From Liolophura sinensis (taxonomy: Eukaryota > Mollusca > Polyplacophora > Chitonida > Chitonidae), in NCBI RefSeq assembly GCF_032854445.1, contig NC_088302.1, positions 46,230,645 through 46,294,644 on the forward strand: a DNA stretch of 64,000 nt, in the 5' to 3' direction. Every line of letters begins with the position of its first letter. Within the stretch, counting starts at the first letter, position 1. Below, piece by piece: positions 13,145 to 64,000 of the stretch. A program made the position numbers and the translations under genes. The notes beneath the pieces were generated by a model, which saw only the letters and a program-made list of their open reading frames with translations, was not told the DNA's origin and did not search any database.

Positions 13145-13492
13145 GAGTGAGTGCTTGGGGTTTAACATCGTACTTACCAATTTTTCAGGCATATGACGAT
13201 GATTTAATCGTTAGAGTGCATGTAATGTGCCTCCTTGTTGAAGGACGGATTTCCACCATTCTTGTATCTAGTGCTGCTTTACTGAGACGCCTTATCGAAG
13301 GCAAGTACGCCGCTCAGCCTGAGCCATTATACTGATACGAGTCAACCAGTCATTGCACTATCCCCATCATGCTGAACACCAAGGGAGGAAGTTACAACTT
13401 CCTCTTTAAGGTCTTTCCTGTGACTTGATCCAGGCTTGACCCTGGATCTACCGCTCCCGAAGCCGACGCTCTACCAACTGTGCTATCGGGCC
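13145..13492 (-). mobile_element. tRNA-derived SINE, family B (full length)
   Basis: Minus strand. A tRNA-like head (GGCCCGATAGCACAGTTGGT, AGAGCGTCGGCTTCGG) is followed by the palindromic GAGGAAGTTGTAACTTCCTC block. The 3' end reads GTTAAACCCCAAGCACTCAC. Two plus-strand relatives lie at 24805 and 55096. It sits in the likely 5' UTR intron of BLTP1. Confidence 0.8.
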
Positions 13493-13860: not shown

Positions 13861-14062
13861 ATGTTGAACGGCCACCACAATGATTCATTCATCGACCGCC
13901 TGGAGACGGAACTTCCTCAGTCCACATTCTACTGGCTGGTGATAGCACTGCTCCTGGCTGTCCTCTGGGTAACCTACCTGACGTATTACAACTCTAGGAT
14001 CCTGGGCATCATCCTCTCCATTGTTCTCAACAAGTTTGTCAAATATGGCCATATCAGATTTG
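13861..14062 (+). CDS. BLTP1: BLTP1 exon 1 (N-terminal ER anchor)
   Basis: ATG 13861. About 20 polar residues precede a hydrophobic helix (FYWLVIALLLAVLWVTYL), then TYYNSRILGI as in family members. Donor G|GTATGT, phase 1 out. A preceding CCTGTCAG at 13828-13835 suggests the exon proper starts at 13836 with a short 5' UTR. Confidence 0.93.
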
Positions 14063-17000
14063 GTATGTTACACATGCTTTCTTTTATTATTGTATGTATT
14101 GAGCCATTGTGCCATGTACATGTGTAGATACAATATGCATTATTAGGGCTGAAATGGGGGAAAAAATGGGTATATCAGTGCAGAGGTAAAACTTTGGAGT
14201 GTACTGGGTAAAAGGTGGACACATACATATATGTGCACCCATACATTTCTAAGTTAAGCTTTGATTGGACATGTGTATTAAAAAAATTATCCTAGAGACG
14301 CCGTAGATGCTATCTAGGCACATGTCATTTACATTGGTTAAATCAGACAATGGTGTAAAATTCCTGCATGGGCAAGTGTGTAATCAATGTAATCCTGTGA
14401 CAGCTGTTTTGTAATGAATTTCCAGTGGTGTCATGATTTTCATCTCCTGGAGTGTTATCAATAATTATACACCTCCTACTCTGTCATGTCCATTTGTGTT
14501 CATATTGTATGTAACTCTATCTATGATTGAATCAGTTTTTCTATTCTTTTCTAAGTAATAGGTTATGCTATGAAATCTATCAGCTTGTGTGTTAAGTATT
14601 AAATTATGCTGCATAAGGATATACATGTGCATGTACACAATTTTGGTATTAGTCTGTATGATATTATATGTTTACACTTCTAGTATCCTAATATATGATC
14701 AATCCAATTATAAACCTACAGTGTAAAACACCAATCAAATAAATCAATAAATGAATCAATGATAAACCAAATGATCTGAACTTCTAAACATGCACTTGTG
14801 GTAATATTACCGGTAGTCAAAAAAGCTTACAGTGTACATATATGTACTTAATACTTAGCATTCAGTGATTTAATATTAGTACAAATCAAGACTGTTGCAT
14901 TGTGTGGGATTTGTGACTGAAAGTGCTCTGCAGTATGTGCAAAATAGGACCATGTTTATAGTTAATAAGGTGTTGTGTTATCTGTCTTTGTAAGGTGATG
15001 TGTTATCTGTCTGTGTAAGGTGATGTGTTATCTGTCTTTGTAAGGTGAAGTGTTATCTGTCTTTACGCGGATCATAGGATGTGTCTAGTGATGCGTGTGA
15101 CATTGCTCTTTCTATATCTGCCAGAATTATTCCAGTGACTGAAGTGTTGTGTTGTCTGTATCACCTTGGATTATTCCAGTGACTGAAGTGTTGTGTTGTC
15201 TGTATCACCTTAGCTTATTCCTGTGACTGAAGGGTTGTGTTGCCTGTATCACCTTGGAATATTCCAGTGACTGAAGTGTTGTGTTGTCTGTATCAACTTA
15301 GATTATTCCAGTGACTGAAGTGTTGTGTTGCCTGTATCACCTTGGAATATTCCAGTGACTGTGGTGTTGTGTTTATCTATATGATCACTTGGATTATTCC
15401 GCTGACTGAAGTGTTGTGTTATCTGCATCTCTGATTATTCCGGTGACAGAAGTGTCATGTTGTCTTGATCTACTATAATAGGGGAGTTTGGAGTTTGGTA
15501 CTCTTTAATTGCTCAAGGAAAAAAATGTTCTGCTGTACCATGTGACCCGTCAGAAATGTTAGGTAACTATTTTTTGATAACATTTGCTATAACATGGGGT
15601 AACCTGGAAAAGGTTTCTGCAAAAGTTATTTAGAATAAAGGAAAAATGGAGAGAATGAAGGAAGTGAAACTTTATGAACTTCAGAAGTACCTGGAAAAGA
15701 GCAGTGTCAATGGTGTGTCCACAAAATAACAAAACAGCTGATTGGTAAGATAATGTCAACAAATGTTGCCTAATATATTTGACAAGTCACATGATACAGA
15801 AGGACTATTTTCACTCGTACCTCCCCTATTCCAGTGACTAGAATGTCATATTATCTGTTTTCTGAAGGATCCTTCTCCGTGTCTGTGTTATCTGGAAAGA
15901 TCATGTTTAGAGATGTACATCTGGTTACCGAGGATTTCTCAGTCCGGGTTCAGTATGGCTGGATCATATTCCGCTGGTGGCGACCCTATGTATTTCGGGA
16001 ACTCCATGAAGGTATGACATGTGAAATAACTAGAGTATACATGTACTATGAGTCTGAGGACTCCAGATATGTATAGGTCTGCTTTGATTACTTTAAACTT
16101 TAAAATGGACGTCTTTGGTTCCCTGCTTTACTGCATTTGTCTTCATTTTTCTTCTCTGATAAAATTATATACCTTGAACCTTTTATACCTCTTTCCCTTT
16201 TTTTGATTTTAACACATTTTTTTTCTGCCATCATCAGATTACATAAATGTATTTCCAGTTTCTGTGTCTGAACTTTGAGCCAGTATTTTCTCTGTTATTG
16301 TAGTGTTCAATTTAGTATTTTTGTTTTGTGTATCAGATTTGTCTCATTCTGACACTCGTGTCTCACTGTACCTGGACAAGTTTGAGTTTCACGTGTACAA
16401 CCGTTCCATGGAATATGCCAGTCTGGAGAAACTGTTTGGTCTAGACCCTAAAATGTTACCCAAAAAGGAGCCCCCTGATAAAGAGAAGGAGCAGACTGGG
16501 TTAGTACATGGACATGTTTCATGATGATTTTGAGATTGGTTTGGCAGAAGTGAATGTTATAACACTATTCATGTGTATTAATTTGCATCTTTATGTTTAA
16601 AGAAAACATTTTCACTATTTTCGCTGTTTTTAAATTCCCTGCCTCCACTGTACTTATAGCCTGGGTGGCAGTAACTGGCTTGTAGCACTCATAAGGCAGG
16701 TACATTGAGATTCCTCAGCAGATGAAAATCTGTGTGTCACATGTGGGGAAGCTCATCACATACTTGCAAAATGCCAGTGGTTTATTCTGATCACTCAGTC
16801 AAATATTCTAGACTATAGTATTAATCCACAAACTATCAGTGAATGAAAAGATATATAGTAGGAAATATCTCTGATAATGAGTGAATCTTTATATTTTCAT
16901 TTCCACTGATAAGCTTTATGAAGTATAGTATTGTGGTAACTCCAACAAAAGATACAAGTCGATGCATGAGTCCATATTTCGGTTTTATTTAAACCATTTT

Positions 17001-20000: not shown

Positions 20001-23000
20001 AGGTTTGTTTCCTCTCTACTCCTGAGGGACCATTTCATAAAAACTTCTTGCCGAATTTTTTGTCTGTAAATATTGGATGTGTGTGATGAGGCTTCCTAAT
20101 AAGCTGACATCGCTAATTGATAAAAAATTGTGTATGAAGTTGGCCTTATTTTCATTGTCAACAGTGTTGAATAAAGTTTTATTTCTGTGGTTGATTCCGG
20201 GGCAAAATATATTTACCTGTATGTCTTTTGTCCCTTTTGAATAAAATTACAAGCAATACGGTGATTAAATCGTCAGAGAAAAGGGATGGGTTTGACGTTC
20301 TTATTACATCTTAGCCCTATAGCTCTGCACAAGTACACATGCCATTAAATCAATGTGAGAAAGATACTCTTATATAGTAAGTTTTTATGGGTCAAGAATT
20401 GTGTCTTCTCATATTATGCATAGAGGTGGCTTGTAGGATCAGATTTTTTGTTGACCTGATTATTGCGGACGTCAGAAAGTACTTAATCTCAAGCACTCTG
20501 TGCTGTGACACTTATTGAAATCATTCATATTTTTATTACTATTTTTCTTTCGTTTGTTTTTTGAAAGCTTTAAGAGCTGTAAAATTGAAAGTTTTTATTG
20601 GATGTTATTGAAATTTAGTGATGTTAGGAACAAGGTTACGGAGTAAATTTTGGTTAACACATGACATGGCGGCTGTCTTGAATTTTGATCAAAGCCTTTA
20701 AAAATCTTCCTCTCAAGAAGCAAGGAACAGATTCTTTTGAAATATGATATACTTGTAGAGTGATTCTAAAATTGTCTAATTTTGATAATGTTTTCATGTA
20801 TTTTGGTGTATTAGGCAGCACTGATTCTGAATCTGCTTTCAAATTTTTTGAGATATTGTCGGTTTCGTTTTTTCAGTTTCGTAGTTTCAATGGCCTATAA
20901 CTCGTACACACTCAAGACATACTGTAGTTTCTGGTATGTGCCAATGGATATGAGCTATGATCAATAGTTTTCTCGCTAGAAATGTTTAAATGACACCACC
21001 CTACTTCAGAAATAGAAATGTAAGTCCTGTTTGCAATGCATCATGGGTCAACAATCGGGACGGCATTCTCCCACACCCCCGTGCTATCAGGAATATAATG
21101 TAAGTCCAAAGCCATGGCGAAATACATAGGAAAAACTTCTATCCACTACCTTCAGTCATTACGAGCCCAAAAACTGTAACTCTTGTGAGGCCAAATTCAC
21201 CTGTTAAAGAAATGTTGCAGTTTCCAGTTTCTTTTCAGGTCTAGACTTCACATGCCCATAAGGAAGAGACGGGCTTTAGGATGCCCTACAGAAAAGTAAC
21301 TACGAAACCATACACCATGGCTTTGAACGGGGGATGTTTTTTAAAGAAAACAACACACAACACTGCTTATTCCTTCTATGTAGACCAAACTTTCATAACT
21401 TTATAGTCTCCTAACTTTTCCTGTCAGCTACATGCTCTCTGTCCTTGCCCGCTCTTAAAACTGAACTGAGCCCAGGCAAACCAGATGGGACACTAGAGTG
21501 GAGTGATTGCAAACCATGTATCAAGCAACTTGAAATGTACATACTCAACCAGGTGTGGTGGTCGCCAAGGCCTAACACGGGCAAGATACTGTGGTGATTT
21601 TCAGCTCTAGACACATTATATATGATATCTGATAGTGTGGGGTTCAAACCCAGTTGATCACTTTTCATTTTCGTTATGCTTTTCTCCATGTTGTACTGTT
21701 ACAATTTGTACATGCAGGTTGATTTTGTGAAATTTTCCATTTGTCTGTTTTACTCCGGCAGTTAAATCAAGCTGTTTGTCCTTATGTGTTAGCATATGGT
21801 CGTAAACTGTGTTTTAAGATTAATGAGTGCAGCATATAATCAGCAGTTTTAATTCAATCCATTGTCGATACTGTCATTTGCAAAATCAGAATTTTCCTGA
21901 AAATTTTACTGACCATATAATGTTTTCTTTCAACCTGTCAAAATTGGTTCAAACTTATACTGGCTCTAATGCTCTAAGCATTACTTACATTCTATCCACC
22001 TCTCTCAAAGCACAGCAGCAAGGAGTCGATCAATCCTTTTAATCCAACTCCCTCACTATTAACGCTGGATCCCAAGGCCCAGATTTGTAAAAAGTTATTT
22101 TATCAACTGAAAGTAAGGCTTATAAGATTCAGAGTAATTGTGAAACTGGTTAACCTCGTATAAACATTTACCACTGTTGATTCATAGGCTTCTTTTATAA
22201 TGTTAAAAGCCTGTTTGTAAACACCCTCAGTGCCCACAGCACTTGTGTAATGAGCTGACGCAATTCAATTTGACACGATTTTTTTATGTTTTCCTAAGTT
22301 TAATTTTTGCAATAATGGAAAATTAGCTCAGTGCATTACTTTCATTGTGTGTTTTTTATTGACAATCAGTTGGGTCTTGGTTCTTGGCTACCAGTATCGC
22401 TGTAAGGAATGTAACAGTTTTCATTGCATTTTATAATGCTCAGTGCCCATTTGTTCAACTTGTGCCAGCTAATACTGGTGTTAAATCATATTTTATAATT
22501 AAAATTTTACACAAACTGAGCAACCAATGCAGTTCTCCAATGTCAAAGTATAACAGCAGCATTTTAGGCGTACGTTTAATTTACTGTTACAGAATTGTTT
22601 TTAGGCTAAGTACAGAATTGAAGACTTGTCTTAAAGTTAAATCTGGTATTAAGTCTTAAACCAGTTTTGAACAACCGAGCCCAGGTGTGCAAAAAAAGAC
22701 AAATGAGTGAAATTAAAATTCTTCAGTTGTGATAATTTCAGAGAAAAAACAAAGTATATGTCATAGTTTAGATTTAATTTTAAAAAATGTCTTTTCGTTT
22801 CAATATGCCTATGTCCTCCCTAGGGAACTTTTCGCCGACTCTGGTATTTCTTATTTACAAATTGCTTAGCGCACACTAAACTGAATAATAATATGTGTAT
22901 ATGTATCTTTTGAGCAGCGTGACTAAGTATGGCCTACTGGGGAGATGATTGCAATATTCTACTGACATAATTTGAGCAGCTTGTCTAATTATGGCCTAGT

Positions 23001-26000
23001 GGGGAGATGATTGCAATATGCCACTGACATAATTTTTGATACCTCACTTGCATTAGCTTTGAGGTTCGTCAGGCACTTAGCAAAGGGAACCAGTTTCCGC
23101 CACTATTAAGCCGTGTCTCTGCCTATACACTGTTAAACACTAATCAAATACATGTGTTTGCTTGTATGATAAGTGACCTAAAATTTCCAAAAAAGTGCCA
23201 TTAGAGAAGCAAATAATTAGTGTAAAGTATTACTTTTGGTGCTGAAATTTACATTTTCCAGTAAGATATAACCGTACCTTATATAGAAACCACAAAGGAA
23301 CTTTTTGAGATTAATAGAACTCTGAGAATGATGGAAAATGTGCAACTTAAGTGATGAAGAGAAATTTTGAGCCATTTAATATAAATGAAGTGTATGCTCG
23401 ATAAAACTCCATAAAAAAACTTCAGGATAATGATTGCTGACCTGAGTGTGTGTGATTTTCAGTTCTTAGTGAATGTGAAGTACCCTCGTTTATGGAATGA
23501 CCACCAGGACTGGTACATAGACCTCACAGCCTGCAAGGCTTCGCTGGGACTCATCTTCCATCACAAACACTTCATCGTAGGTGAGGCAAATCTTCTACAT
23601 TGCATACCATATGTACTTATCAGTTGTTCAGACCTAGAATGTGACATGAAGCTGTCTTATACATGTGGTTAAAAATACCATTGTGGGAAATGATTGTTCT
23701 AAATTTTTTGTTTAATTCTTTTTATCGGTAATCAGAACTGCACTATATGGCTTGAAAATAACTTATTTTTTGTAATGTTTTTTTTCTAATACTTACATTG
23801 GTTTTAACAAACTTTGTATGTAGGGAATTAGTTGTTATCTTCCTTATAAAGAATTGTGTCTTTAGACTTAATTGTGAGTTTTCATTTGCCGCCACATGTT
23901 TGTTTTACAATGTATTTGAGATCTGTTCTATGAAGATATAAAAATGTTGTTCTCCAGGAAAATTCATTATAAAAGAATTAGAAAGGCCTGACTATTTCGA
24001 AGGACATACCTCTCAGTCATGTTGATTGTTGATGTTGTAGATTTGATTGATGACTGGTCCACCAAGACCGTCCCAGACCTGTATCACTTCACCCCGTACA
24101 CCTGGCATTTTAACCTGGTGATTAAGGAGTTTGAATTGCTGACTATGACAAATGAGTACAATTGGATAGACACAGCCTCACAGCATCAGGAAAATGGTGA
24201 GGATTTACACTCACTGGCATATACTTTTACCTGTTCATATATTTGAAGTAAAATACTCTTGGGTTCCTACTTTAATAGCTAATTTTTGCAGGCAAATAAA
24301 TGTCATAAGATATTAGTTTTGGTGCTGAAACTTACATTTTACCAGTGGGGTATCATCCTACCTTTCAAACAAACCTCTGAACGCACGTCTAAAGTCAGTA
24401 GAACTCTCTGCATTTGGAAAAATGAGCATGTTCGAAATTTTAGATCATTTAGGTTATATGTAGCTTACTGTGAAAATGTAATATTTAGTCAATCTCACAA
24501 CCGGTGTTAACGAAGTTTGAGGTATCAAAAATATGTGGTCAAGATGGTATAAAATATTTGGGGACATATTGAATCCTAACTAAACCGCATAGGCCTGTAT
24601 TTTCCAAAAGAGGTCAATTAAGAGAGTTAAGGGGGAATTCCTCACTGATCTAAACTGTCCGCTTGACTAGATAACATGCAAATGAGGCAGTGCAAAGATG
24701 TCCACAGTGTATCATTCACTCCTAGATAGGACATGTAAACAGTACCATAGGTTGAAAGGGAATTATAAATTTAGTAAACCATATGTGATCTTCCTTTCTA
24801 TTGATGCGTCCGCTTCGGGACCGGTAGATCCAGGATCAATCCTTGATCGAGTCACACCTAAGACTTTAAAAGAGGAAGTTGTAACTTCCTCGCTTGGCGT
24901 TCAGCATGAAGGGGATAGTGCAACAACTGGTTGACCCGTATCAGTATAATGGCTAGGGCGGGGCGGCTTACTTGCCTTCGGTAAGTCGTCTCAGTGAAGC
25001 AGCACTAAATAAAAGAGCGGTGGAAATCCGTCCTGCAACAAGGAGGCACATTACACGTACATGCACCCTAATGATTCCTTCGTCGTCATATGACTGAAAA
25101 ATTGTTGAGTACGACGTTAAACCCCAAGCACTCACTCACTCCTTTCTATCGATAATGTTTTATAAAGTATTCGTAATTTTCAACGATTTCTATGGCACAA
25201 CTGAAGTTAAATGGTAGTCCACATAATTACAACACAATATCGTGTCTGACATTCAAGTTCCTTGAACATCTCCTGCTCTCTAGACAAGATGGGTAGGTAA
25301 CTGACTCGAATAAATCAGGATTTCTAAATAGAGCGACTTGAGTGAGTTGATGATTGAAGGGAAACCCCAGGTAAAAGTTAGAGTAAGTAAGACATCTGGA
25401 AGTCTCAACTTTATGTAGATGAGGTCTAAGATATCAGCACAATTTTTTCTACGTCAGTGGTATGTCCCTTTAAGACTTTTTTTTAAAGGGTGACATGTCC
25501 TAGAGGTAATGAAAATTCACTGAGCTATATTTGTCACTATATGGTGATCTCTTTGTTTTCTTTCAGCACACATAGCCATATGTGGAGAAACGTTTGACCT
25601 GTCCTTCCAGCTTCCCTTTATTGACTTCATGCCAGAACGTCTGCCCATTAAAATTTTTATCAGGGTGAGTTTTACGTGTTCCTTACAAGTCCATATCCAT
25701 GACATCAGTTTGAATTTGTTTATAGTGGTAATTCATGGGTTAAATACATCTCATAGCACATTTTTTTATTTCCAATGTCTGTGATTTAAACAGTTTTATC
25801 CAGTCTTGTCTGATGCCTGTCAGTTAGAGTGCGCTTAAATTGGATTTAACACGAGTTCCTGGTGTCCCCCATTTTTTTTCTTCTCTTGTGAGCAGAAAAA
25901 CTTTATCAGACAAATACCAAAACTTTGAGATCAGATCTACACCGAAATAAACTCAAATATTAATTTAACAAATATAGCTGCTAATTCAAGCCAGTATTGC

Positions 26001-32000: not shown

Positions 32001-35000
32001 ATGTACATGGAACACACTACATGCTGAGGCCTATACAACTCAGATATAGGCTCAGTAGGGCTATTCAGAGATGTAGTTCTTACACAGCTGTACTGAGATC
32101 TAAACTCAGTGTGTCAGTTACTCTGATATGTAGGCTCAGTATGACTATGCTGGGATGTTTATTTCTCAGTACGGTTATTCAGAGGTCTAGGCCTTACGTC
32201 ACCACAACATAGCTGAAATATTGCTGATCTGACATAAAGCCATAATCATTCATTCAAGGCTTTACAAAGCTATGCTGAGATCCAGGTTAGCTACAGTTAT
32301 GCAGAGATCTAGGCCAGTTATGAGGTCTTGACTCCATAAAACTATGCTGAAATGTAAGCCTAAAACGATTGTGCTGAAATGTAGGTCTGACATCTAAGCT
32401 TAATACAGTTATTCTTTCCTCTATACTTATTATAGCTTTGCTGAGATCTACAATGAATATGAGTGTGCTGCGATTTTCATGTAAGCTTGCCTTGGATATG
32501 ATATATTCTAGTTTCTGTAGATACATGTATGGTGGGAAGCTATATTGGTGTAGAGATCTAGGCTCAGTTCGGCTATGCTGATTTCTAGCAAACCATACTA
32601 AACTTTTTTTGTTGCATTAAATATGTGTGCCTTATTAGATAATTACATAAAACATGTACATATACATTATAAATCACATTTTCAAAGTTTATATAGTGTT
32701 TTATTGCTACCATTTTCGTAAGCGGTACTTTATGAGCATTAGAGAAAAGAGGATATTATAAATAAAACATACTCTTGTGAAGATGGCAGATAAGAAGTAA
32801 AACAGTGATTGAAAAAGTGTTCTGTTTTCAAGTAATAAATGATAATATATGAATTTTATTATAAATGCCTTGTGTTCAGAACTGCAGTGAGCAGGACCCA
32901 CCATGCCCCAGTGTTCACATAGAGAGGATAGGATTTGAAATGGACAAGACATTCCTGGAGACCAAGCTTCAGCTGTTGTTATCTCCTGCAATACTGGTTG
33001 CTACAGACAACTTCACGGTGGGTAATAATTCAGAATGTTAATTAGTACATTGTACAAATTACATCCTTATACTGGTAGCTACGGACAACTCCATGTTGGG
33101 GAATTATAGAAAATAATATTCATATTCTTGCTGCCCCACGGACACCATCACAAAATAGTGATCGTACACCAGTGGCCAAATGTCATATCTGCTTTTTAGT
33201 CTGAGAGCATCTTATTTCAAAATGTTAAAAGAAATCAGAACAAATTCATTTGATTTGTAAAATATGTTTTGACTACAAATGGTAAACTGTATGATGCATG
33301 TATTTCATACAAGTTTAGCAATGCTTTCTGTTCCCGTTATAGAGGCCTCATGATCAAGGTCACTTGCGTCAAGGTCACATAGGTCTCTCAGGTCTTCAGG
33401 TCAGAGGTCATGCTATGTTCTCTCACCAAGGTCTTCCCCTGGACAGTGAGACTCTGGAGTATGGATGGCTGGTGGAGGCCACTATAGGCGATATCACAGG
33501 AAAACTGACTACACCACAGGTTGGTACTATCATATCATATAGGAGATATCACAGGAACTACATCAAAGGTTGGTACTATCATATCATATAGGAGATATCA
33601 CAGGGACACCATCAAAGGTTGGTACTGTCATGGCTGTAGGTGATATCACAGGAAAACTGACTACACCACAGCTTGGTACTCTCAGTTGATATCAGAGGAA
33701 CTACACCACAGGTTAGTACTATCATGGTTATAGGAGATATCACAGGTAGTACACCACAGGTTGGTACTGTCATGGCTATAAGAGATATCACATGTTCTAC
33801 ACCACAGGCTGGTATTATCATGGCTATAGGTGATATCACGGGGACTACACCACACGTTTGTACTACCAAGCTATGTGCAGGATTGAGTCATATGGTCTGT
33901 CTGGCCAAGAAAAGCCCATAGTGCACCTTAATTGTACTATCATGGCTATACATGATATCACAGGGAAATGGACTACATCAAAGGGTTGGTGGGGCCTCCG
34001 TGGCTCATTCAGTTAGCAGCATAGTGACCAGAAGCCTTTCACCAATGTGGTCGCTGTGAGTTCAAGACCAGCTCATGCTGGCTTCCTCTCCGGCCGTATG
34101 TGGGAATGTCTGTCAGCAACCTGCGGATGGTCGTGGGTTTCCTCCGGGTTTTGCCCAGTTTCCACCCACCATAATGCTGGTCGCAGTCATATAAGTGAAA
34201 TATTCGTGAGTCCGGAGTAAAACACCAATGAAATAAATAAATCAAAGGGTTGTACTCTTAAAGATATCAATGGGAAACTGAGAGTTGTACTTTTTTGACT
34301 CCATTACATTCAGTGAAGACTAATTGTCTTCTATTGATATGGTGTGCAAAGGTTTTCAGTAGCCAAAGGTCAGCGGTTTACCTCTGGCACTCCGGTTTCC
34401 TCTAGCCATAAAACTGTGATTGTATAATTATCTAGTGTTGAGTTAAACATCAGTCAGATAAAAATAATTAAATAATCAGACTGTAGCTGTTTACAAACCT
34501 GCTGTTCTCCCTGCTCAGGTCCAGAACATCTCTGAGTTCCTGATAACGTTTGTAATGCTGGTGGATGACCCTGAGAACCGGCTTCAGCGGCCAGTCCCCT
34601 ACACCTTGTGCCAGCACATGTTACCCCAGCACCAGTGTGGCCACTCCTCCCGTCTCCCCTTCCCCTGCCCATCCTCTGAAGACATCAAGTATCGCATGAC
34701 ACGAGCGTCCATCGACTCTATCAACCTGTTTGTGGTGGAGTCTGGGAGTGCCCTTAACTTCCAGGTAAGAATATTTGTATTCTGGAAGCTTGTTGTTCAG
34801 AAGGTCTTCAGAAGATACAACTAGCTTTACTCCCATATTTTATTACCAGTGATAAAACCAAAATGCTAGGTAGACTATTGAAACAGTGCATTCCACAGTA
34901 CGCCTATTCAGTGAGATAAAACCAATGTATCTATTAGTTGAGGGCTGTCAGTTCTCATTACACTTCTGTACTCAAGAAGTGTATCCTGTTAGCTGAGTAA

Positions 35001-38000: not shown

Positions 38001-41000
38001 ATGTCAGGACCAGTATAAATTTCATGGGATCATTTCCAAGCTCTCAGTTCATTTTGTCAGTATAAAGTGCAGAGTGGTTTATGAGGACTCAGGCACTTAT
38101 CTGGCTATGTAGCGATTGTACCTAGTGGGCCTCCATGGCTGAGATTATTATTGAACTGACCAGCACAGCACAATGACACAAGAACCTCTCACCATTGTGG
38201 TCACTGTAAGTTCAAATCCAGCCCTTGCTGGCTTACTCACCTGTGGTATGTGGGAAGGTCTACGAGTAACATGCAGATGGTTGTGGGTTTCCTCCTACCA
38301 TAATGCTGGCTGCTGTCGTATATGTGAAATATCCTTGAGGATCCTTAAAACACCAATCAAATAAATAAATAAATAAATTGATTTTGTTTTACACTTAAAC
38401 AGTAGTGAATAAAATGTGTTGATTGTCACCAGCTAAAATAACCAGTTATGATATAAATACCTGATCCATGTTTTCTGGTGCACAGATGTATCAGAGCTTG
38501 CTGCAGCAGAGAACACCTCTAAGACGACAGCCGTGGTGAAGATTAAGGAATCTGTGGACATTATGTTGACCCCACTGCTGCTGGAGTCCATACAAAGGTG
38601 TGTGTGCACAATGCAGGATATCATCGTTCAGAGTCAACTGAACTAAGGTCTACCCAGTGCACTCTTCGCAAATAATAGTCATATGAAAAACATAGAAGGA
38701 TTAATGTCTAGTCAAGTGTTAGTAATGGTTTGTAACGATATTCACATTAGCATCAACTGTCAGAAGCTCTCAGATCTTGTGTCTCACTATAAACAGTTGA
38801 ATTCTTAACCATGAATCATGAAGTGAGAGTTCAGTCATGACCTTGTACACGGAATTTCTAGATTCTCTGCGCTAATTGCTTGTGCGGTCTTGGTGACTGT
38901 AAGCCATGTGTAATGCCCTTGCGGCTGTTTGTACAGTGTTATGTTCATTGAAGGCTACATGTCCCACACAAAATATCATAGAAGTCTGCATGTCATATGT
39001 GCAAAAGTCCTACTGGAACCTGCCAAAGGTCAGTGGTTTATTTTAGGCATGCTGGTTTCCATCACCCAGAAAATGTATACACAAAGAATTCTCGTGTATG
39101 GCAATAAACAACCATAAAACAAATCCACTCTTTGTCAGGTATGTGGAGGCAGTGATTCCAGCCTTGAATGTCCTTCACCCGTCCTCAGTGATTGACTTCC
39201 TGCATGGCCTCTGCCTGGACAAAGTCAAGCAGCAGAATACATTCAAACAGGGAGTTCACAGCGACGCTGACACTCCGGACGAGGAGGAGGTACCCTCGTC
39301 TGACCAGGTGGACCATTCTGGGGAGGTGAACAAGGGGGATAATACGGCCACGCGCACCTCTAGTCTACAGGCCCTCATCTCTCTCTCTAAGGTGACTCTA
39401 ATAAATGCCTTATGCTTGTATGGATATAATGCACATATGAAACAGAAGTGAATGGTGATATAATGCAAATAGCTATATTCTTGCTAAGATGTTTGATGTA
39501 TTCAGGAGTCCAGTTATATAGTGCAGTGGTTAACAGTGGTTAGAAAGTCATAATGGTGTCAAGACGTTGTTGCATGCAAAAAAAATTTTATTGAGTGAGG
39601 TCAGTACAGTTGTCTTTGCTGAAAGATATTACCTGTTGTTGTCTCATTATTCCATGTAGTTTTCCCAGTACATATATAGCAGCCTAGATGTGCATATGTG
39701 TGTCATTTCCCTTGTAAGCCCATGTCATTTTCCTTGTAAGCTAGCCCATGTCATTTTCCTTGTAAACCAGCCCATGTCATTTTCCTTGTAAGCTAGCCCA
39801 TGTAATTTTCTTGGTAAACCAGCCCATGCTGTTTTCCTTGTTGTCTCATTATTCCATGTAGTTTTCCCAGGACATATATAGTAGCCTAGATGTGTATATG
39901 TGTGTCATTTCCCTTGTAAGGTAGTCCATGTCATCTTCCTTGTAAGCTAGCCCATGTCATCTTCCTTGTAAGCTAGCCCATGTCATTTTCCTTGTACACC
40001 AGCCCATGTCATTTTCCTTGTAAGCTAGCCCCTGTCATTTCCCTTGTAAGCTAACCCATGTCATTTCCCTTGTTGTCTCATTATTCCATGTAGTTTTCCC
40101 AGTACATATATAGTAGCCTAGATGTGTATATGTGTGTCATTTCCCTTGTAAGATAGCCCATGTCATTTCCCTTCTAAGGTAGCCCATGTGATTTCCCTGT
40201 AAGCTAGCCCATGTCATTTCCCTTGTAAGCTAGCCCATGTCATTTTCCTTGTAAGACAACCCATGTCATTTCCCTTGTAAGCTAGCCCATGTCATTTCCC
40301 TTGTAAGATAGCCCATGCCATTTTCCTTGTAAGCCAGCCCATGTCATTTTCCTTGTAAGGTAGCTCATGTCATTTCCCTTGTAAGGTAGCCCATGTCATT
40401 TCCCCTGTAAGCTAGCCCATGTCATTTCCCTTGTAGGCTAGCTCATGCCATTTTCCTTGTAAGCTAGCCCATGTCATTTTCCTTGTAAACCAGCCCATGT
40501 CATTTTCCTTGTAAGCTAGCCCCTGTCATTTCCCTTGTAAGGTAGCCCATGTCATTTTCCTTGTAAGCCAATAGTTTTCCCAGTACATATATAGTAGCCT
40601 AGATGTGTATATGTGTGTCATTTCCCTTGTAAGATAGCCCATGTCATTTCCCCTGTAAGCTAGCCCATGTCATTTCCCTTGTAAGCTAGCCCATGTCATT
40701 TCCCTTGTCGGCTAGCCCATGCCATTTTCCTTGTAAACCAGCCCATGTCATTTTCCTTGTAAATCAGCCCATGTCATTTTCCTTGTAAGCTAGCCCATGT
40801 CATTTTCCTTGTAAACCAGCCCATGTCATTTTCCTTGTAAGCTAGCCCATGTCATTTCCCTTGTCAGCTAGCCCATGTCATTTCCCTTGTAAGCTAGCCC
40901 ATGCCATTTTCCTTGTAAGCTAGCCCCTGTTATTTTCCTTGCAAGCTAGCCCATGTCATTTCCCTTGTAAGCTAGCCCATGTCATTGCCATTGTAAGCTA

Positions 41001-44000
41001 TCCAATGTCATTTCCCTTGTAAGCTAGCTCATGTCATTGACCTTGTAAGCTAGCCCATGTCATTTCCCTTGTAAGCTAGCCCATGTCATTTCCCTTGTAA
41101 GCTAGCCCATGTCATTGCCCTTGTAATATAGCCAGTGTCATTTCTCTTGTAAGCTAGCCTGTGTCATTGCCCTTGTAATGTAGCCCATGTCATTTTCCTT
41201 GTAAGCTAGCCCATGTCATTTCCCTTGTAAGATAGCCCATGTCATTTCCCTTGTAAGGTAGCCCATGTCATTTTCCTTGTAAGCTAGCCCATGTCATTTC
41301 CCTTGTAAGGTAGCCCGTGCCATTGCCCGCGTAATGTAGCCCTTGTCATTTTCCTTGTAAGCTAGCCCGTGTCATTTCCCTTGTAAGGTAGCCCATGTCA
41401 TTTCCCTTGTAAGGTAGCCCATGTCATTTCCCTTGTAAGGTAGTCCATGTCATTTCCCTAGGTAGCCCATGTCATTTCCCTTGTAAGGTAGTCCATGTCA
41501 TTTCCCTAGGTAGCCCATGTCATTTCCTGTGTAAGGTAGTCCATGTCATTTTCCTTGTAAGGTAGCCCATGTCATTGTCCTTGTAAGGTAGTCCATGTCA
41601 TTGCACAGGAGCCTTTGTCATTCCCCCCTGTAAGGTAGCCTATGTCATTTCCCATGTAAGGTAGTCAATGTCATTCCCCTCGTAAGGTAATCTATGTCAT
41701 TTCCCTTGTAAGGTATATTTACAGGTACCGGTAACCTGTGTCATTTCCCTTGTACAGTAACTGATGCTATTTCCTTACTGTAAGGATGGTTTCATTTTAT
41801 TTTCTAGATCAACTTGTGTATCCTTCAGTCCTCTGTGGTCGAGGAGGTTATCTCTTTCTCAGCCCTTGACCACATCCAGGAGCTGGCCTGTGTGTCCATG
41901 CTGGCCGTGTGTGTGTGGACAATATCACCTGTCAGGCTCTGTTCAATGACCACTCTTGTCAGATCACACACCAGAACAGCCGAGAATCCAGCATCAGGAA
42001 GCTTAGTTCTGGAGCTGTCACTAAGAAAAGTAAGGACTCAGTGGTCGTGGAGATTCCTGCCCCGGTAGATGGGGAGGGGGAGAAAGTGGCGGAGGTACTG
42101 CGGGAAGAGTCCCTGGGCAAACTGCAGATCGGCCGAATACACTGTCAACTAAGGAGGCTGTTCAAAGCAGCTGCAATCACGGATAATGTGTTTCTGACAG
42201 CTATACCGGACCACCGTTCCAAGGTCATGTTTGTGTTTGATAAAGATCCCAGGGCACCTGCGTCTGGGGGAGCCCAGTCGTCTCCTAAACGCCCTAGAAG
42301 GATGTCTAACAAAGAGTTAAGGCTGAATGACACGGAGGATACCCAGGGGCTGATCATGTTTGAGTGTGGAATTGAGGACATCACTCTGACAGCTGTGCGC
42401 AGGCTGGGTTATAAGGACAGCACCAGCCAGTCCTTCCAGGAGAAGATGGCGGAGATTGAGCGCACCCTGAATGAGATGCAGGAGAAGACCAACTTTGAGA
42501 TAGAGACAGAGACAGAGCCCCCAGCAGGGCACCGCAGAAGCAGCACCAACTCCAGTAGGGTGATGCCCAGCATAGACTCTTTTTCTTCCTGGGACTCACG
42601 TCTCTCCATCCCCTCCAGCGCTACATCCTTGCCCAGTGTGACCCATGTGGAGCCACTGGTTGGTGATGCTTCCAGTCTGATCCTTCAGTTCACAGATGTC
42701 TGGTTCAACTTTGCCTCCCCACCTTCATTGCCCAGGAAGAGGCAGGCAGATTTTACCAGGTAGATGAACACTATTAATGGTCTAGATCATTATTGTTCAA
42801 TAACAGCAGTAAAAGTTTTTGCTATAGTGCACATGGAAAGAAGTGTTATTACCCTTTCTTGGAAATACTAATGTAATAGGATAGAATTAATATTTTCTTG
42901 TTCTATTCTTCCAATATTTATCATTGTATGAAGAGAAGCCTGTAAATTTGTAACAATTACAAATTGATTTATACATATTTCTAGTGCTCAACAGATGTAT
43001 ATTTTGCAGTATGAATTTATTGAATGTTGTGAGCATCCTCTTGTCTGATTTTAAGGCTGGATTGGAACCTACTGAGCACTGCAACCCCTGCCATCAATGC
43101 CTGGCTGAATCCTGGTGACCGTATGATGACTTCAGTGAATGAGTTAGTTAGAACAGTCACAGAGAGGACTAGTTCCATCATGGCCTGCATCATGACGGAT
43201 GCACTTGAGGTCCAGGGCATACACATGCCTTACAAGGTACAGAGCACGCACAACCTTACTAGATGTGGAGCACACACGTGCCTTATAAGGTATAGAGCAC
43301 ACATAACCTTACTAGATGTACATGTGGAGCACACACACCTGCCTTACAAGGTATAGTGCAGACACAACCTTATTAGATGTACATGTGAAGTACACACACA
43401 TGCCTTAGAAAGTATAAACCATGCACTACCTTAACCCCCTGCAGACGAGAGCCAAATGCTCAGCTATTGACCACGAGTAACTAAAACCTCATCGTGTGTA
43501 CCCAGTTTTTAGTGAGTGAGTCAAGTATCTAGCCTGTTCGATATTTTCAGGCAGGCAAGATAAAAAACTCAGTGTGTGGGAAAGGTAAGCCATCAGCTCC
43601 GCCAGATACATAAACAGCCCATTATATATGCGCTAATAAATCATATGACTTTTCCCTGTGGTTTGCTCAGAATGGCATCAGAAATGATGACTGATCTGTT
43701 ATAGCTGATTCAGCCATTTTTTGTTGATAGGAAGCTCATAAAGAATGACATCACTGTTTGACAGTAAAGTTGGCAGTAAACTCTGCTCTACCGCATCATC
43801 CGAGTCCACCATTGTTCTTCTGTTGAGCCACGTGAGCCATGTCAAATGACTGATCATATCCTGTTTCACAGCAATCTGCAAGCTAAATGCTCATCATCTG
43901 CATTTAACTTTTTGACTGAGGCTATGCCCTCATCTGATTAGTAACTTAGCATTCGGCTCTTGTCCACGGAGAAATTGTGGGGTACACACACATGCCTTAT

Positions 44001-53000: not shown

Positions 53001-56000
53001 TTGGGTAGTGTGTCGTGTGTAACTACCTTGGTAGTCTCTAACCCTGGCATACATGTACCTGTACAGGACTTGTTGATGAAGATACTCTACCAGACTTTTC
53101 AAGAGTCTATTGGATGTCTGTGTCGCATTATTCTGAACTGAAATAGATTCAGATTGTAAAAACAGTGTTTGTATTCATTACTGACCCAAGAGAATTTCAA
53201 CAATATGGTAGTTGTGAGTTCAATTCCAGCTCATGCTTGCTTCCTCTGTGGGCATACATGGGAAGGTCTGTAAGCAAACTGCTCATGGTGGTGGGTTTTT
53301 ACGAGCCCGGTTTCCTCCCACCATAATGCTGGCTGAAATATTCTTGAGTACAGCATAAAACACCAATCAAATGTATAAATAAATAAATGTATTCATCACA
53401 TTTGTTCAGAAATTACATGCAAATAAGCTGTGATGTTAATGTGCATGTGTGGTGGTTTAATTTGTACTTTTAGTGGAGAATCAGAAAACTTTCATCAGAG
53501 CACATGTGGAACTGAACCTGGCCCTGGGACAGTTGCTAAAGGTACACGTATGATCTTCCTACAGTAAATGACCTAAAAATTAGCCCATGTAACCTTCACC
53601 AAGTTATTTGCTTTTAAAACTGCACTTTTATTGGCAAAAGTTTGTCATTTATTGTTTGTGAGAAATTCACTTGCTCCCTTCAATTGCTTTACTTAAGAAA
53701 TGAAGGCACCCTGTACTTTTCAGGTGTTTTGTCGCTATCTTGTGGAAGGATTGTTTTTCATAACTCTCCTCTTCTACTTCTATGAATGTATTTGATTTAA
53801 ATATGAAAATACACTGATGTTTTAAGGCTCCCTAGGCTCTTCTGTATACATATCGGTGTTTATGGCATTCTGTATTTTTAAGTTTCTGTGCTTTTTAAAG
53901 TCACAGCATCGATAGAAAATTATTTTTGCCACTTTTTTTCTGTTTTTACATATGTATGTGTTGTAGTTTATGTACATGCTTATATTGTTTTGTAGAATCC
54001 AATGTTTGAAGAGGCTGAACCAGAATTTCAAACCATGGCTTTCTTTAAAACCAAGATTGCACTGCGGAATGCTTTACAGGTAATTCAGGGGTGTGTCCAG
54101 GACTAAGGTGTTTCTCGGTGTATTTGTCTACCCTTCAGCCTGACTGTAGTCATACAAGTGATATAGTGTTGATAATACAGTGTAGAAGATGAATGAGGTA
54201 ATGGGATACAGTTGTGACTACCCTTTAAATTGATAGTACATCTATGCCTACAGTATATGATACATCTATTATAGTATGTCTGCCTTATAGCATATATGTG
54301 TTTTGTGACTACCTTTTGAGTTGATGATATGCCAACAAACTTGGCAGTTTTGTTTTATGACTACTTTTGAAGTGTTTCCCTAATGCTTCAGAAATTTGGG
54401 ACAGTTATTAGTAGTGTTGAAAGAAGAATATTACATTTCTTTACCAGCCTTTTGGAAATGTAAAGGTATGATTATATTGTTCATGAGGCTGTCTGACCAT
54501 GTAAGAAAAAAGAAACTCAATATTCCTGCTAGAATTAAACATATATTGGCTAAAATCAGCAGACCAGGTGTCCCAAATTTTAGAAGAAATAGGGTACTTT
54601 GCCTACACTATATCATTTAAAAGTGTGTTTTGTTTCCACAGTCTGAGATGATCCCAGGTCAGGCAGAAGATCAGGAGGCCTTGCTCATCAAACTCACACG
54701 ACCCATCATCCTGGCTCAGCCCCAGTCATTTGACAAAGGTATTAACTAGCTACTTCTCTGTATTACTACTAAATTATTTTTCTAAAGCCTGTTTGCTGAT
54801 AAAGGTTAAAATATAATCAGAATGGCTTTATTGAGACATGGCCTCGGTTATATAAAAACTTGCTCCTCTTTTATGCACAACATCAGTACATTGGAAATAA
54901 AATAGTAAATATGGAAGTAAACTTACGTTATTTTGTTCTAATATCTGTTCATTAAAAACACCTTAACACTTTTTTGTGCTTGCCCTGTGTTTGCAGCTGT
55001 CCTGGTTTGGCTGAATTACAGACATGCTTATGAGTACTGGGCTGAACAGAGAATGGCTCTTAACAAGGAGGTATGTGTGATCATTTTACATTTACCTCAG
55101 TTCATAGAGCATCCGCTTCAGGGGTAGTAGGTTCAATCCTGGGTAGGGTCACACCTAGGACCTTAAAAGAGGAAGTTAGAACTTCCTCGCTTGGCATTCA
55201 GCATTAAGGGGAAGTGCAACAACTGGTTGACCCGTATCAGTATAATGGCTCAGGTGGAGTGGCTTACTTGCCTTCGATAATGCATCAGTGAAGCAGCACT
55301 ATATAAAAGAGTGGTGGAAATCTGTCCTGCAACAAGGCGGCACATTACATGCACTCTAAGGACTCCTTTGTTTACATATGACTGAAAAATTGTGAAGTAT
55401 GACGTCAAACCCCAAGCACTCACTCACTCATGTTACATTTACATGTGTTAAACAGGTGTAGATTTCTGTAAATAGTTGGAATCTGTAATAAAGATGTATC
55501 TGAAGTGCGCTGTACACTTATGCTGGCTTCAGTTTGCTTTTGTTTGTCTCTGGAAAGAAATGCTTGTTGTCATTCAGTAAGACTTCTTTTGTGAAGTCAC
55601 AATTATAGTGAATTTTCCCTTATTTTATTTTAGTCCTTAATTCCGATCTTGTGGTAGTCAGATGTTGATCGTATTTTAGTCGGAATTTCTGTTATATTTG
55701 ATCCCCAGGTTCAGCGGGCCACCCAGCAGGTAATGGACAAGCTGCCCCAGCTAGCTCCCGCCTCTGCCCCAGCCTTTAGCACCCTCTTCCTCCAGCTAAC
55801 TGTAGATGACCTGGGTATCTGTGTTCCAGCCTCCACCAACACACACGTAAGAATACAGCCACCTTACAATGAGATCTCAGTGATTATTTGACTGTAAAGC
55901 TCTTGTGCTTTCATATCTACATGTTTTACATGCAGAATCCTCAATCCTCAAGTGTGAAAGTATGTTACTGGCCTTTTTTAAAATTGTTTTGTTGGTGGCT

Positions 56001-59000
56001 TTTTGGAAATTTGACATGTTTTTGTGCTAGGCCAGGTTTTCTCTGTTATCCTTTCAATCATTCATGTTCCAGGGCCACCAAATGACCAGCAGATTTGTGG
56101 AGAGTGAACCGGGAGCAGCCCTGGTACTGACTATAGAAAACACCCAGATCTCTGCTTGTTCCTCTGGCTCTCTGGTCAGCAAGGGAAAGTTCACAGGTCA
56201 GAGGGTCAAAGGGCATACTTTTCTAGTCTTCATGTAAATGTCGTGTCATGTGTGTATTCTTCAAAGATGTTTTGTGTAAGAACATTTGAGACCTCTCTGA
56301 TGTGTGGCTGACTTTATATTAATTATAAAAATAAAAATTATTAATGTATGTAAAAATGTAAATTATAGCTAGTACATTAATCCGCCAATTAAGAGTGCCA
56401 ATATACGCTTTATTTATACCGTGGCATTATGACACTGTTAGTATTGAACATACATACTGTTTATAGTCTGTTAAGATCTGATCCCTTCATCTACTTTCTG
56501 TGTTAATTCACAGTATAGTTGATGTTAAAGTGGCGTTATTTTTCACCCATCCGTGTACAGGTTTCTGTTTGCGGTTTGCGGATGACTTTGAGACGTCATG
56601 GGATGAGTGGAAGCCAGATGAGCGGCATGGTCCTATCATGAATGTGTGTAATGTCCCTGAGGGTACCTATGAGGTTTGCTCCAGGACCATCAGCAAGCAG
56701 ACACCAGGTACGATGATATGACGTGTTAATGTTTCCATATTCACAATTTCCACTGCTCCTCAGATACCTTGAAATTACTTGAATTTGTTGAAAGATTTGC
56801 ATTCTTTTTTAAGCTTTCTTTTGGGATTATTTTTTTAGAAGTCTTTGAAAGTACTTATTTTAATGTCAGATGTATGTCAGATGTATGCATACTGGTTATT
56901 GTAAATGTAGGATACAAAGCTTATTACATGTACCCTAAATGCCCCGAAATTTCGCCCACAAAAGTGCATTTTTAGAGGCAAATAAACCTTTCTAAAATTA
57001 ATGGAACACTCAGAATCAGGAAATATGGGCAAAGTTATAGTTATGGACGAAATTTATGGTCATTTATAGGTACTTACATGTAGAAGCCCATACAGTACCT
57101 GTTCATTGCAAACAGGTTAAGGGTTTCAGATGTTATATTACATGCACGTGTACATTGTGAATTTATCAGCAAACAAGCATCGTGTCAACATTTCCACATT
57201 TCTCACAACTTTTGATAACTGATTTAGTTGTATCATGGCACCATGTGTGTTGCAAGTGACCGTATAGTGCTTTGTCTGTTAAATACTCTTACAGTGTCCA
57301 TTATTCCAGTAATGTAGCATATATGTGCGAGATATTTTGCCAGGCCTGGTCTTTATGAAGTGTAAAAGCTTCTCTGTCATTTGGCCCCAATCTAGTCAAA
57401 GTCACTGTGAGAACAGACTGTGTATTAGCAATCCTGGGGTTGAACATTTCATAGCTGTGCCATTGTTATGCATGAACTACTTTTGTATCAAAGTTTCTTG
57501 TTACATGTACATAATAAAATCATAATTTTTAAAGATGTTGGTGGGGAAGAGGGGCATGGAAGGTGTTCGGTGGCCAAGTAGCTAAGATGTTAGCACAGAA
57601 CAATGACTCAGGAACCTCTCAACTATGAGGTCGCTGTGAATTCAGAAACATGCTGATGGTCATGGGTTTCCTCGGGCTCTGCACAGTTTCCCCTCACCAT
57701 AATGCTGGCTGTTGTTGTATTAGTGAAATATTCTTGTGTGTGGCGTAAAACACAAATATAATAAATATGTACATTAAACACGTTGATTTCATGTTTTCCT
57801 GGTTTTCTGTTCAGATACAAATGCCAAGTGGATTTTGAACATCCTATGGCAAATGCAGGGTATAGATGTCCACTTTGATACAAACATTGGGAAGTGGTTG
57901 TCTGCCCTTGGCAGCACTCTGACGGTTTTAGCAGGACAACCTGACTATAACATTGAAGAGGATGGGCCTAAAGGGGATGCAGAGGATGACTATGACGATG
58001 ATGATGATATGCAGTCATTACAGGCATGTTGTTACTCTACCGTTCCCTAGTAAACACACAGCATCGAGTTAAGTTATCCTAGACAAAGGAATAAATGATA
58101 CCAGTGATGGTGATGTACAGAGTGCATGACGAATAATGTCTGGTGGAATTTAATGTAGATGGCAAAACAGAAGGGTTAAAATAAAAATGGCAATGTTGAT
58201 TGAAATATCCCTTCCAGTTAGTAGTACAAATTTGAAATAGTTCACTGGAAAATGTGACTAGGTGTTAGCAAGTAACCTTTCTTGAATCCTTCAGCAGGGT
58301 TTTACTTAGTTAAATGCAATCCCTCAGTAGACCCCTCCAGGCTTTCTTCGCCCATTTACATGACCATCACATTATTCATAAACAAATCTGGAGTATGGTG
58401 TGAAACAGTAGTGATATGCACATTCACAGCCTAACAGGCCCTTCTCACCTCCCCTCCCTAAGAAAAAAAACAAGTTTTATGTCTTAAAAATTTTACGGTT
58501 TAGGTGGAGACAATGTCTCGCCGGTCAGCCCAGGTGATGGAGAGCTTACCAGCATTTGTGTATGACACCAGCATAGAGCCCAAACAGAGGGTGAGACTGA
58601 TAGAAACAGAGATGAACGAACAGGCCAGGGTGGTGCAGGATCTTAAGTAAGTCCTGGTATAGTTTATCATTATTTGTGTACGACACCAGCATAGATCCCA
58701 GACAGAGGGTGAAGCTGCTAGAAACAGGTGAACGAACAGACCAGGGTGGTGCAGGATCTTAAGTAAGTCCTGGGATAGTTTATCATTGTTTGTGTACGAC
58801 ACCAGCATAGATCCCAGACAGAGGATGAAGCTGCTAGAAACAGGTGAACGAACATGCAACACCTCACAAAACATACATGTAGCATCTGAAATTATGATGG
58901 ATGTGAACAGAATACTTAAATGAAACAAAGTTTGGATTAACTGAGTTAAATATGAATGACTATTAACCGTTTTTATGTGAAGTCATAGATAAAAAGGAAG

Positions 59001-61517: not shown

Positions 61518-64000
61518 GTAGGCACTGCACATGAATGTGGCTTTCCTGTTCACCAAACACACACAGTCTCTGCAGAGGTAGGCACTACACATGAATGTTG
61601 CTTTCCTGTCCACCAAACACACGGGCTCTGAAGAGCTAGGCACTACACATGAATGTGGCTTTCCTGTCCACAAAACACACACAAGCTCTGAAGAGGTAGG
61701 CACTACACATGAATGTTGCTTTTCTGTTCACCAAACACACACGGTCTCTGCAGAGGTAGGCACTACACATGAATGTGGCTTTCCTGTCCACCAAACACAC
61801 ACAGTCTCTGCAGATGTAAGCACTTCACGTGAATGTGGTTTTCCTGTCCACCAAACACATGGGCTCTGCAGAGCTAGGCACTACACATGAATGTGGCTTT
61901 CTTGTCCACCAAACACACATGGGCTCTGCAGAGGTAAGCACTACACATGAATGTGGCTTTCCTGTTCACCAAACACACATGGGCTCTGCAGAGGGAGGCA
62001 CTACACATGAATGTGGGTTTTCTGTCCACCAAACACATGGGCTCTGCAGAGGTAAGCACTACACATGAATGTGGGTGTCCTGTCCACCAAACACACGGGC
62101 TCTGCAAAGGGAGGCACTACACATGAATGTGGCTTTCCTGTTCACTAAACACACATGGTCTCTGCAGAGGTAGGCACTACACATGAATGTTGCTTTCCTG
62201 TCCACCAAACACACGGGCTCTGAAGGGGTAGGCACTACACATGAATGTTGGTTTCCTGTTCACCAAACACACATGGGCTCTGCAGAGGTAGGCATTTCAC
62301 ATGAATGTGGCTTTCCAGTTCACTAAACACACACGGTCTCTGCAAAGGTAGGCACTACACATGAATGTGGCTTTTCTGTCCACAAAACACACAGGGTCTG
62401 CAAAGGTAGGCACTACACACAGGCTCTGCAGAGGTAGGCACTACACACAGGCTCTGCAGAGATAGGCACTACACATGAATGTGGCTTTCCTGTTCACCAA
62501 ACACACAGGCTCTGCAGAGGTAGGCTCTACACATGAATGTGGCTTTCCTGTCCACCAAACACATGGGCTCTGCAGAGGTAGGCACTACACATGAATGTTG
62601 GTTTCCTGTTCACCAAACACACACGGTCTCTGCAGAGGTAGGCACTACACATGAATGTTGCTTTTCTGTTCACCAAATACACATGGTCTCTGCAGAGGTA
62701 GGCACTACACATGAATGTGGATTTCCTGTCCACCAAACACACGGGCTCTGAAGAGATAGGCACTACACATGAATATGGCTTTCCTGTTCACCAAACACAC
62801 ATGGGCTCTGCAGAGGTAAGCACTACACATGAATGTGGGTTTCCTGTCCACCAAACACATGGGCTCTGAAGAGGTAGGCACTTCACATGAATGTGCCTTT
62901 CTTGTCCACCAAACACACGGGCTCTGCAGAGGTAAGCACTTCACATGAATGTGGCTTTCCTGTTCACCAAACACACATGGGCTCTGCAGAGGTAAGCACT
63001 ACACATGAATGTGGGTTTTCTGTCCACCAAACACATGGGCTCTGCAGAGGTAAGCACTACACATGAATGTGGGTGTCCTGTCCACCAAACACACGGGCTC
63101 TGCAAAGGGAGGCACTACACATGAATGTGGCTTTCCTGTTCACTAAACACACACGGTCTCTGCAGAGGTAGGCACTACACATGAATGTGGCTTTCCTGTC
63201 CACCAAACACACGGGCTATGAAGGGGTAGGCACTACACATGAATGTGGCTTTCCTGTTCACCAAACACACATGGGCTCTGCAGAGGTAGGCATTTCACAT
63301 GAATGTGGCTTTCCAGTTCACTAAACACACACGGTCTCTGCAAAGGTAGGCACTACACATGAATATGGCTTTTCTGTCCACAAAACACACAGGGTCTGCA
63401 AATGTAGGCACTACACACAGGCTCTGCAGAGGTAGGCACTACACACAGGCTCTGCATAGATAGGCACTACACATGAATGTGGCTTTCTTGTTCACCAAAC
63501 ACATGGGCTCTGCAGAGGTAGGCTCTACACATGAATGTGGCTTTCCTGTCCACCAAACACATGGGCTCTGCAGAGGTAGGCACTACACATGAATGTTGGT
63601 TTCCTGTTCACCAAACACACACGGTCTCTGCAGAGGTGGGCACTACACATGAATGTTGCTTTTCTGTTCACCAAACACACATGGTCTCTGCAGAGGTAGA
63701 CACTACACATGAATGTGGATTTCCTGTCCACCAAACGCACGGGCTCTGAAGAGATAGGCACTACACATGATATGGCTTTCCTGTTCACCAAACACACATG
63801 GGCTCTGCAGAGGTAAGCACTACACATGAATGTGGGTTTCCTGTCCACCAAACACATGGGCTCTGAAGAGGTAGGCACTTCACATGAATGTGGCTTTCCT
63901 GTCCACCAAACACATGGGCTCTGCAGAGCTAGGCACTACACATGAATGTGGCTTTCCTGTCCACCAAACACACGGGCTCTGCAGAGGTAGGCACTAGACA
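61518..64000 (+). repeat. BLTP1: 2.5-kb array of about 45 copies of the exon 46 end and donor; runs off the window
   Basis: Unit of about 55-60 bases: GAATGTGGCTTTCCTGTCCA, CCAAACACACGGGCTCTGCA, GAGGTAGGCACTACACAT. The first half equals the exon's VAFLSTKHT coding stretch; the second half carries the donor GAG|GTAGGC. Many copies have GAGGTAAGC, a better donor than the real one, and some have GAGCTAGG or AGGGAGG and are dead. Sequence from about 62040 recurs from about 63040 with an offset near 998 bases. The open frames on both strands here are translations of the repeat. Confidence 0.95.

Follow-up and report, generated by a model that had tools for sequence, protein, structure and literature searches.

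In the chiton Liolophura sinensis, exon edges can stand at the end of a tandem array whose units contain the end of the exon, the splice site and the start of the intron. We describe six such arrays in the gene for bridge-like lipid transfer protein family member 1 (BLTP1), which lies on the forward strand at 13861..64000 of a 64,000-base stretch of genomic DNA (the window), and find such arrays also in genes of the dynein, myosin, kinesin and PI-kinase families. The arrays are probably mirages, as boundary-spanning minisatellites have been named in amphioxus: neutral minisatellite growth in which the first unit happened to span a junction and the exon-side copy stayed intact.

The proposed course of events is simple. 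The introns of this chiton are full of minisatellites, and some of the underlying duplications would span a junction. A tandem duplication over a donor would give the order exon, junction, junction-bearing copy, intron, and at an acceptor the mirror image. The exon-side copy would keep the mRNA correct while the added junctions fall within the intron, and a junction duplication would be about as tolerable as a purely intronic one, provided that splicing continues to use the exon-side site. Afterwards the array would expand and decay like any minisatellite, presumably by ordinary slippage or unequal exchange.

Junction-spanning arrays in BLTP1

The sequence comes from one haploid assembly (609,464,459 bases in 632 contigs, the window lying on contig C8). 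The animal was published as L. japonica (PMC11068029) and has been renamed Liolophura sinensis (PMC12441733). All exons, here and in the other genes, were predicted from DNA alone with a simple gene finder of our own, trained on this window. For BLTP1 it gave 47 exons that join into a single stop-free open frame of 11,264 bases; the 3' end of the gene lies outside the window. Pieces of the predicted protein match the Pfam families BLTP1_N, BLTP1_M and BLTP1_C, and there is a weak match to PDB entry 9cap. A 48th predicted exon (48072-48170) is false and was dropped; it lies inside the decayed array behind donor 47742.

At each of 95 exon edges (the model then still contained the false exon) the 48 bp across the junction were compared with up to 400 bp on the intron side. 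A strong copy was found at six edges, one acceptor and five donors, with scores of 58-94. For these six the best of 30 shuffles reached at most 29, and the next edge down scored 38. The arrays and this next edge are:

28456-29135, + strand: array at acceptor 29107; units of about 75 bp, older part with a 172-bp period; real exon at the right end; 8 copies, AG intact in 7
33508-33865, + strand: array at donor 33519; units of about 48 bp; 6 copies, GT intact in 4
43208-43416, + strand: array at donor 43236; units of 53-61 bp; 5 copies, GT intact in 4
47721-48260, + strand: array at donor 47742; units of 51 bp; strong copies to 47817, decayed to about 48260
58554-58854, + strand: array at donor 58646; units of 116 bp
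61475 to the window end at 64000, + strand: array at donor 61517; units of 58-60 bp; 115 copies in the whole array including its continuation past the window, GT intact in 91
32995..33090, + strand: donor 33017; a single additional copy, weak and diverged (score 38, against 21 for the best of 30 shuffles)

The array at donor 61517 extends 4,268 bases past the window into an adjoining stretch (L028) and has a total length of about 6.8 kb; the next predicted exon follows at L028:4374. The array at donor 43236 has a break of about 590 bp, beyond which two further copies lie at about 43975-44110.

In each of the six arrays a unit, as read in the DNA, runs from the end of the exon across the splice site into the start of the intron, and the real exon lies at the exon-side end of the array. 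The latter is not the sign of a special process, since the coding sequence is kept. Both properties had been stated in a preliminary description of this DNA, and the six boundaries named there (the acceptor of exon 13 and the donors of exons 17, 23, 26, 42 and 46) fit the six edges found here; our exon numbers run one or two above the earlier ones for later exons. Two further arrays had been considered probable. The one at exon 2 is not supported, neither of its edges being among the 24 best of the 95. The array at exon 28, given without coordinates, may at a guess correspond to the decayed copies that follow donor 47742.

Arrays in other genes

The sample consisted of 27 stretches of 10 kb from dynein (15), myosin (6), kinesin (4) and PI-kinase-family (2) genes, 270,000 bases altogether. 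The families were fixed before any sequence was seen, and one stretch was taken per gene cluster from the family hits, for a subset of the clusters. Annotation is probably incomplete in the stretches from kinesin and myosin genes. Before any counts were made, 11 predicted exons that lay more than 60% inside arrays were dropped (1 in L004, 7 in L017, 3 in L027).

The sample holds 61 arrays covering 38,341 bases (14%). Twelve of these straddle an exon edge, nine at donors and three at acceptors. Thus junction-spanning arrays are not specific to BLTP1. In the 18 arrays of which each copy was checked (six in BLTP1, twelve in the sample, the L017 array being left out of this check), the main unit spacings range from about 31 to 126 bp. 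The 48-mer test described below yields 22 junction arrays for BLTP1 and the sample together, 16 at donors and 6 at acceptors.

At six array junctions in L004, L019, L023 and L026 the protein alignment runs across without a gap when the exon-side copy is spliced. The aligned proteins are myosin VIIa (two junctions), mTOR, dynein DNAH2 and kinesin (two). The exon-side site is probably the one in predominant use. At donor 6686 of L004 the match stops; the predicted exon that follows aligns with a different part of that dynein.

Three observations concern single stretches. In L004, the predicted exon at 8395-8520 matches DNAH2 about 1,250 residues further downstream than the adjacent predicted exons do; this stretch contains 200 N, and the exon order may be a matter of the assembly. 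In the myosin stretch L017, six near-identical 48-bp exons were called within an 82-bp array (3524-4603), with a larger seventh at the start of the array, which consists of decoy acceptor/donor pairs in tandem. In L027, a PI-kinase-family gene, a 75-bp array (3250-4893) has long open frames across many units.

The possibility that all this is an assembly artefact is remote: HiFi coverage is only 14x (PMC11068029), but copies within arrays have diverged from each other, the pattern repeats at many loci, and many arrays are shorter than the mean read of 8.3 kb reported in the same paper.

Frequency of arrays at exon edges

In the window six of twelve arrays straddle an exon edge. Free placement of the arrays leads one to expect 5.3 (P 0.44), exon-sparing placement 2.3 (P 0.013). 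The six BLTP1 arrays that touch no exon edge, the last of which served as control case, are:

14966-15064
15126-15465
22909-23035
31639-31694
35060-35568
39701..41712, + strand: 26-bp intronic array, the largest in BLTP1 away from exon edges

We place most trust in a comparison that needs no repeat finder, in which each 48-mer is examined for being the first copy of an array, and junctions are compared with 13,500 random intron positions. In the sample, 5 of 316 acceptors start an array where 5.3 are expected (7.6 after matching for G+C content, GC). Of the 316 donors, 11 start an array; 5.2 are expected (P 0.018), and 7.8 when GC-matched (P 0.16). Donors and acceptors together amount to 16 against 10.5 (P 0.07) and, GC-matched, 15.3 (P 0.47). 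The GC content of the arrays (0.414) lies between that of the remaining introns (0.357) and that of the exons (0.492), which makes exon edges favourable ground for arrays. In sample introns of at least 640 bp, a profile of 40-mers across the junctions rises from exon to intron and has no peak at the junction. A permutation of whole arrays in the sample likewise gives 10 straddling arrays against 9.9 expected (donors 7 against 4.9, acceptors 3 against 5.0).

Several results weigh against a purely neutral origin. Within BLTP1, 5 of 47 donors start an array while its own introns predict 0.67 (P 0.0007), an excess to be read with the fact that the gene had been picked for looking striking. In a model in which arrays grow from a seed, sample donors are again in excess (7 against 2.4, P 0.011; acceptors 3 against 2.4), as are the donors of BLTP1. 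The seed model and the permutation disagree because the permutation forces long arrays in short introns to the edges; arrays beyond the outermost predicted exons were excluded from both, so that 46 of the 61 arrays were kept in the permutation and 44 in the seed model. Donor arrays outnumber acceptor arrays by 16 to 6 (P 0.052; P 0.21 for the sample alone). Genome-wide, tandem triples of the donor word AGGTAAGT number 491 against 277 for the reversed word, those of AGGTGAGT 966 against 324; the single words occur 26,660 against 29,208 and 24,497 against 18,845 times, respectively. Per single site, triples of the donor words are therefore 1.9 (AGGTAAGT) and 2.3 (AGGTGAGT) times as frequent as those of the reversed words, in counts to which long arrays contribute many times.

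A possible, though unlikely, interpretation of the donor surplus is differential tolerance: arrays would arise evenly at both kinds of junction, and acceptor arrays would be lost more often, upstream acceptor decoys being met first. The ratio of 16 to 6 is in line with this. Its P values, however, are as given above, and the acceptors do not fall below the intron rate unless GC is matched.

Alternatively, tandem duplications could arise preferentially at donor junctions, for instance because of R-loops, the edges of nucleosomes or the step in GC, and these mutational hot spots would seed arrays more often than other places. Such hot spots would account for the donor excess in BLTP1, in the 48-mer comparison and in the seed model, and for the roughly twofold surplus of tandem donor words. 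Yet we consider them improbable: the sample excess shrinks on GC matching, acceptors have no excess, and the 40-mer profile lacks a peak at the junction. Moreover, when separate arrays on contig C1 were counted by eye among the matches listed, the surplus of triples did not go beyond chance for either word. For AGGTAAGT there are 14 arrays and 14 of the reversed word (P 0.85) in matches reaching 94.4 and 90.4 Mb; for AGGTGAGT there are 14 and 6 (P 0.26) within the first 42.7 Mb, the seventh control array beginning 85 kb beyond that point.

These figures thus leave room for a mild donor bias of no more than about twofold; for this sample they exclude a strong one. The preliminary description had suggested that arrays prefer exon edges, to be checked by a scan of all genes. 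In the 27 stretches the rates are near background, with no excess at acceptors and, at donors, an excess of at most twofold that GC matching weakens.

State and strength of the decoy splice sites

If the decoys were of use to the cell, their splice signals should stand out from the rest of the copy. They do not. The splice dinucleotide positions are identical to the real site in 399 of 438 cases (0.911) and the other positions in 7557 of 8417 (0.898; P 0.42), with 115 of the 219 copies coming from the single array at donor 61517. GT or GC is retained in 163 of 193 donor decoys. The decoy dinucleotides are neither kept nor purged. The similarity of the copies shows no common trend with their rank from the exon across the checked arrays.

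Many decoys are nonetheless strong by our own donor score. The score is at least that of the real donor in 115 of 193 donor decoys, and at least one such decoy is present in 13 of 16 donor arrays. At donor 61517 the real donor precedes 115 copies, and 73 of them equal or exceed its score. With equal or stronger decoys in most donor arrays, accurate splicing, if it holds, would have to rest on position or exon context. Use of the nearest decoy would lead to a frameshift and/or a stop in 20 of the 22 arrays; in the other two it would give an open in-frame extension.

One could read the strength of the decoys and the broken frames as pointing to selection that maintains the decoys to regulate the splicing of a very long transcript. 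We regard this as very unlikely, because GT and AG are conserved no better than the rest of the copies and because dynein, myosin, kinesin and PI-kinase-family genes show the same pattern. Still less probable is that the copies serve as genuine alternative exons or encode part of the protein. The two open extensions would fit, but the other 20 arrays do not, and in the exonic parts of the copies mismatches are even over the codon positions (42/707, 50/717 and 56/696; P 0.30), so that the copies do not resemble coding sequence.

The neutral growth of mirages agrees with the unconstrained splice dinucleotides and with the even spread of mismatches. As to the preliminary interpretation, its observations that arrays straddle junctions and that use of the decoys would mostly break the frame are borne out, as is the donor excess in BLTP1. 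A general preference for exon edges and a function of the decoys, including selection for tuned splicing, are not.

Significance

The arrays amount to a natural experiment that would be hard to build by hand: tens of near-identical donors, each with exon sequence beside it, in one transcript. They pose a clean test of how a splice site is chosen among look-alikes by position alone. When donors are duplicated, the one nearer the acceptor tends to win (proximity rule). It is conceivable, albeit doubtful, that chiton splicing settles on the donor transcribed first, irrespective of those behind it. Should the exon-side donor be used almost exclusively, a strict rule of first come or of exon definition would beat both strength and closeness to the acceptor, and would let donor mirages outgrow acceptor mirages genome-wide.

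Repeat-rich introns can yield arrays of splice decoys without selection. For annotation, such arrays are a possible source of false exons, as with our own gene finder at 48072-48170 and in L017.

Other repeats in the window

Two dispersed repeats were found among the matches listed in a comparison of the window with itself. The first has an identity of 76-87% and occurs in both orientations, upstream of BLTP1 and inside its introns; the second is 81-86% identical over 3 copies.

1778-2012, 10389-10579, 34013-34246, 48809-48968, 60072-60264 and others: dispersed repeat of about 100-235 bp
13145-13480, 24806-25141, 55098-55429: second dispersed repeat, about 330 bp

Comparison with known systems

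Tandem duplication of segments that contain AGGT is known as a route of intron gain (PMC4974935, PMC3087553). The likeness to the chiton arrays is a tandem duplication bearing splice signals. In intron gain, however, the new intron arises inside an exon, whereas the chiton copies sit in existing introns. No new intron is seen in the chiton arrays: 20 of 22 do not read as exons, and at the six aligned junctions the proteins are free of gaps and contain no extra exon.

In the human gene IFI6 (6-16), the units of a minisatellite at an exon edge carry splice donors, as in the chiton, and downstream donors are used to make protein isoforms (PMC4526556, citing Turri 1995). In this respect the two differ, since any use of the decoys in the chiton would mostly break the frame.

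The closest counterpart is found in amphioxus. The preliminary description knew of no name for the pattern, but minisatellites spanning exon-intron boundaries of globin genes have already been named mirages there, with Adh3 cited as the first case (PMC3087553); they also occur in troponin C and PGBD5 (PMC3902484). Among the open-access PMC papers that our searches listed we recognised no description of mirages in molluscs, and a paper on chiton genomes (PMC12005716) does not mention minisatellites and uses the words tandem and intron once each, in unrelated contexts. As far as the relevant passages of the amphioxus papers tell, mirages are tandem copies of exon-intron boundaries at both 5' and 3' edges, with units of 10-160 bp, a range that includes the chiton spacings, and AG or GT is kept in many but not all repeats (PMC3087553). 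The chiton arrays share these traits: they span boundaries, affect donors as well as acceptors, and keep the signals in most copies. The evidence differs in kind. In amphioxus, regular splicing was seen by reverse transcription PCR (RT-PCR) and array length varies between haplotypes (PMC3087553), whereas the chiton arrays are known from the DNA of one assembly. The chiton is a mollusc and amphioxus a cephalochordate, and the chiton arrays were sampled over several gene families together with a background rate. Mirages are hence no peculiarity of amphioxus.

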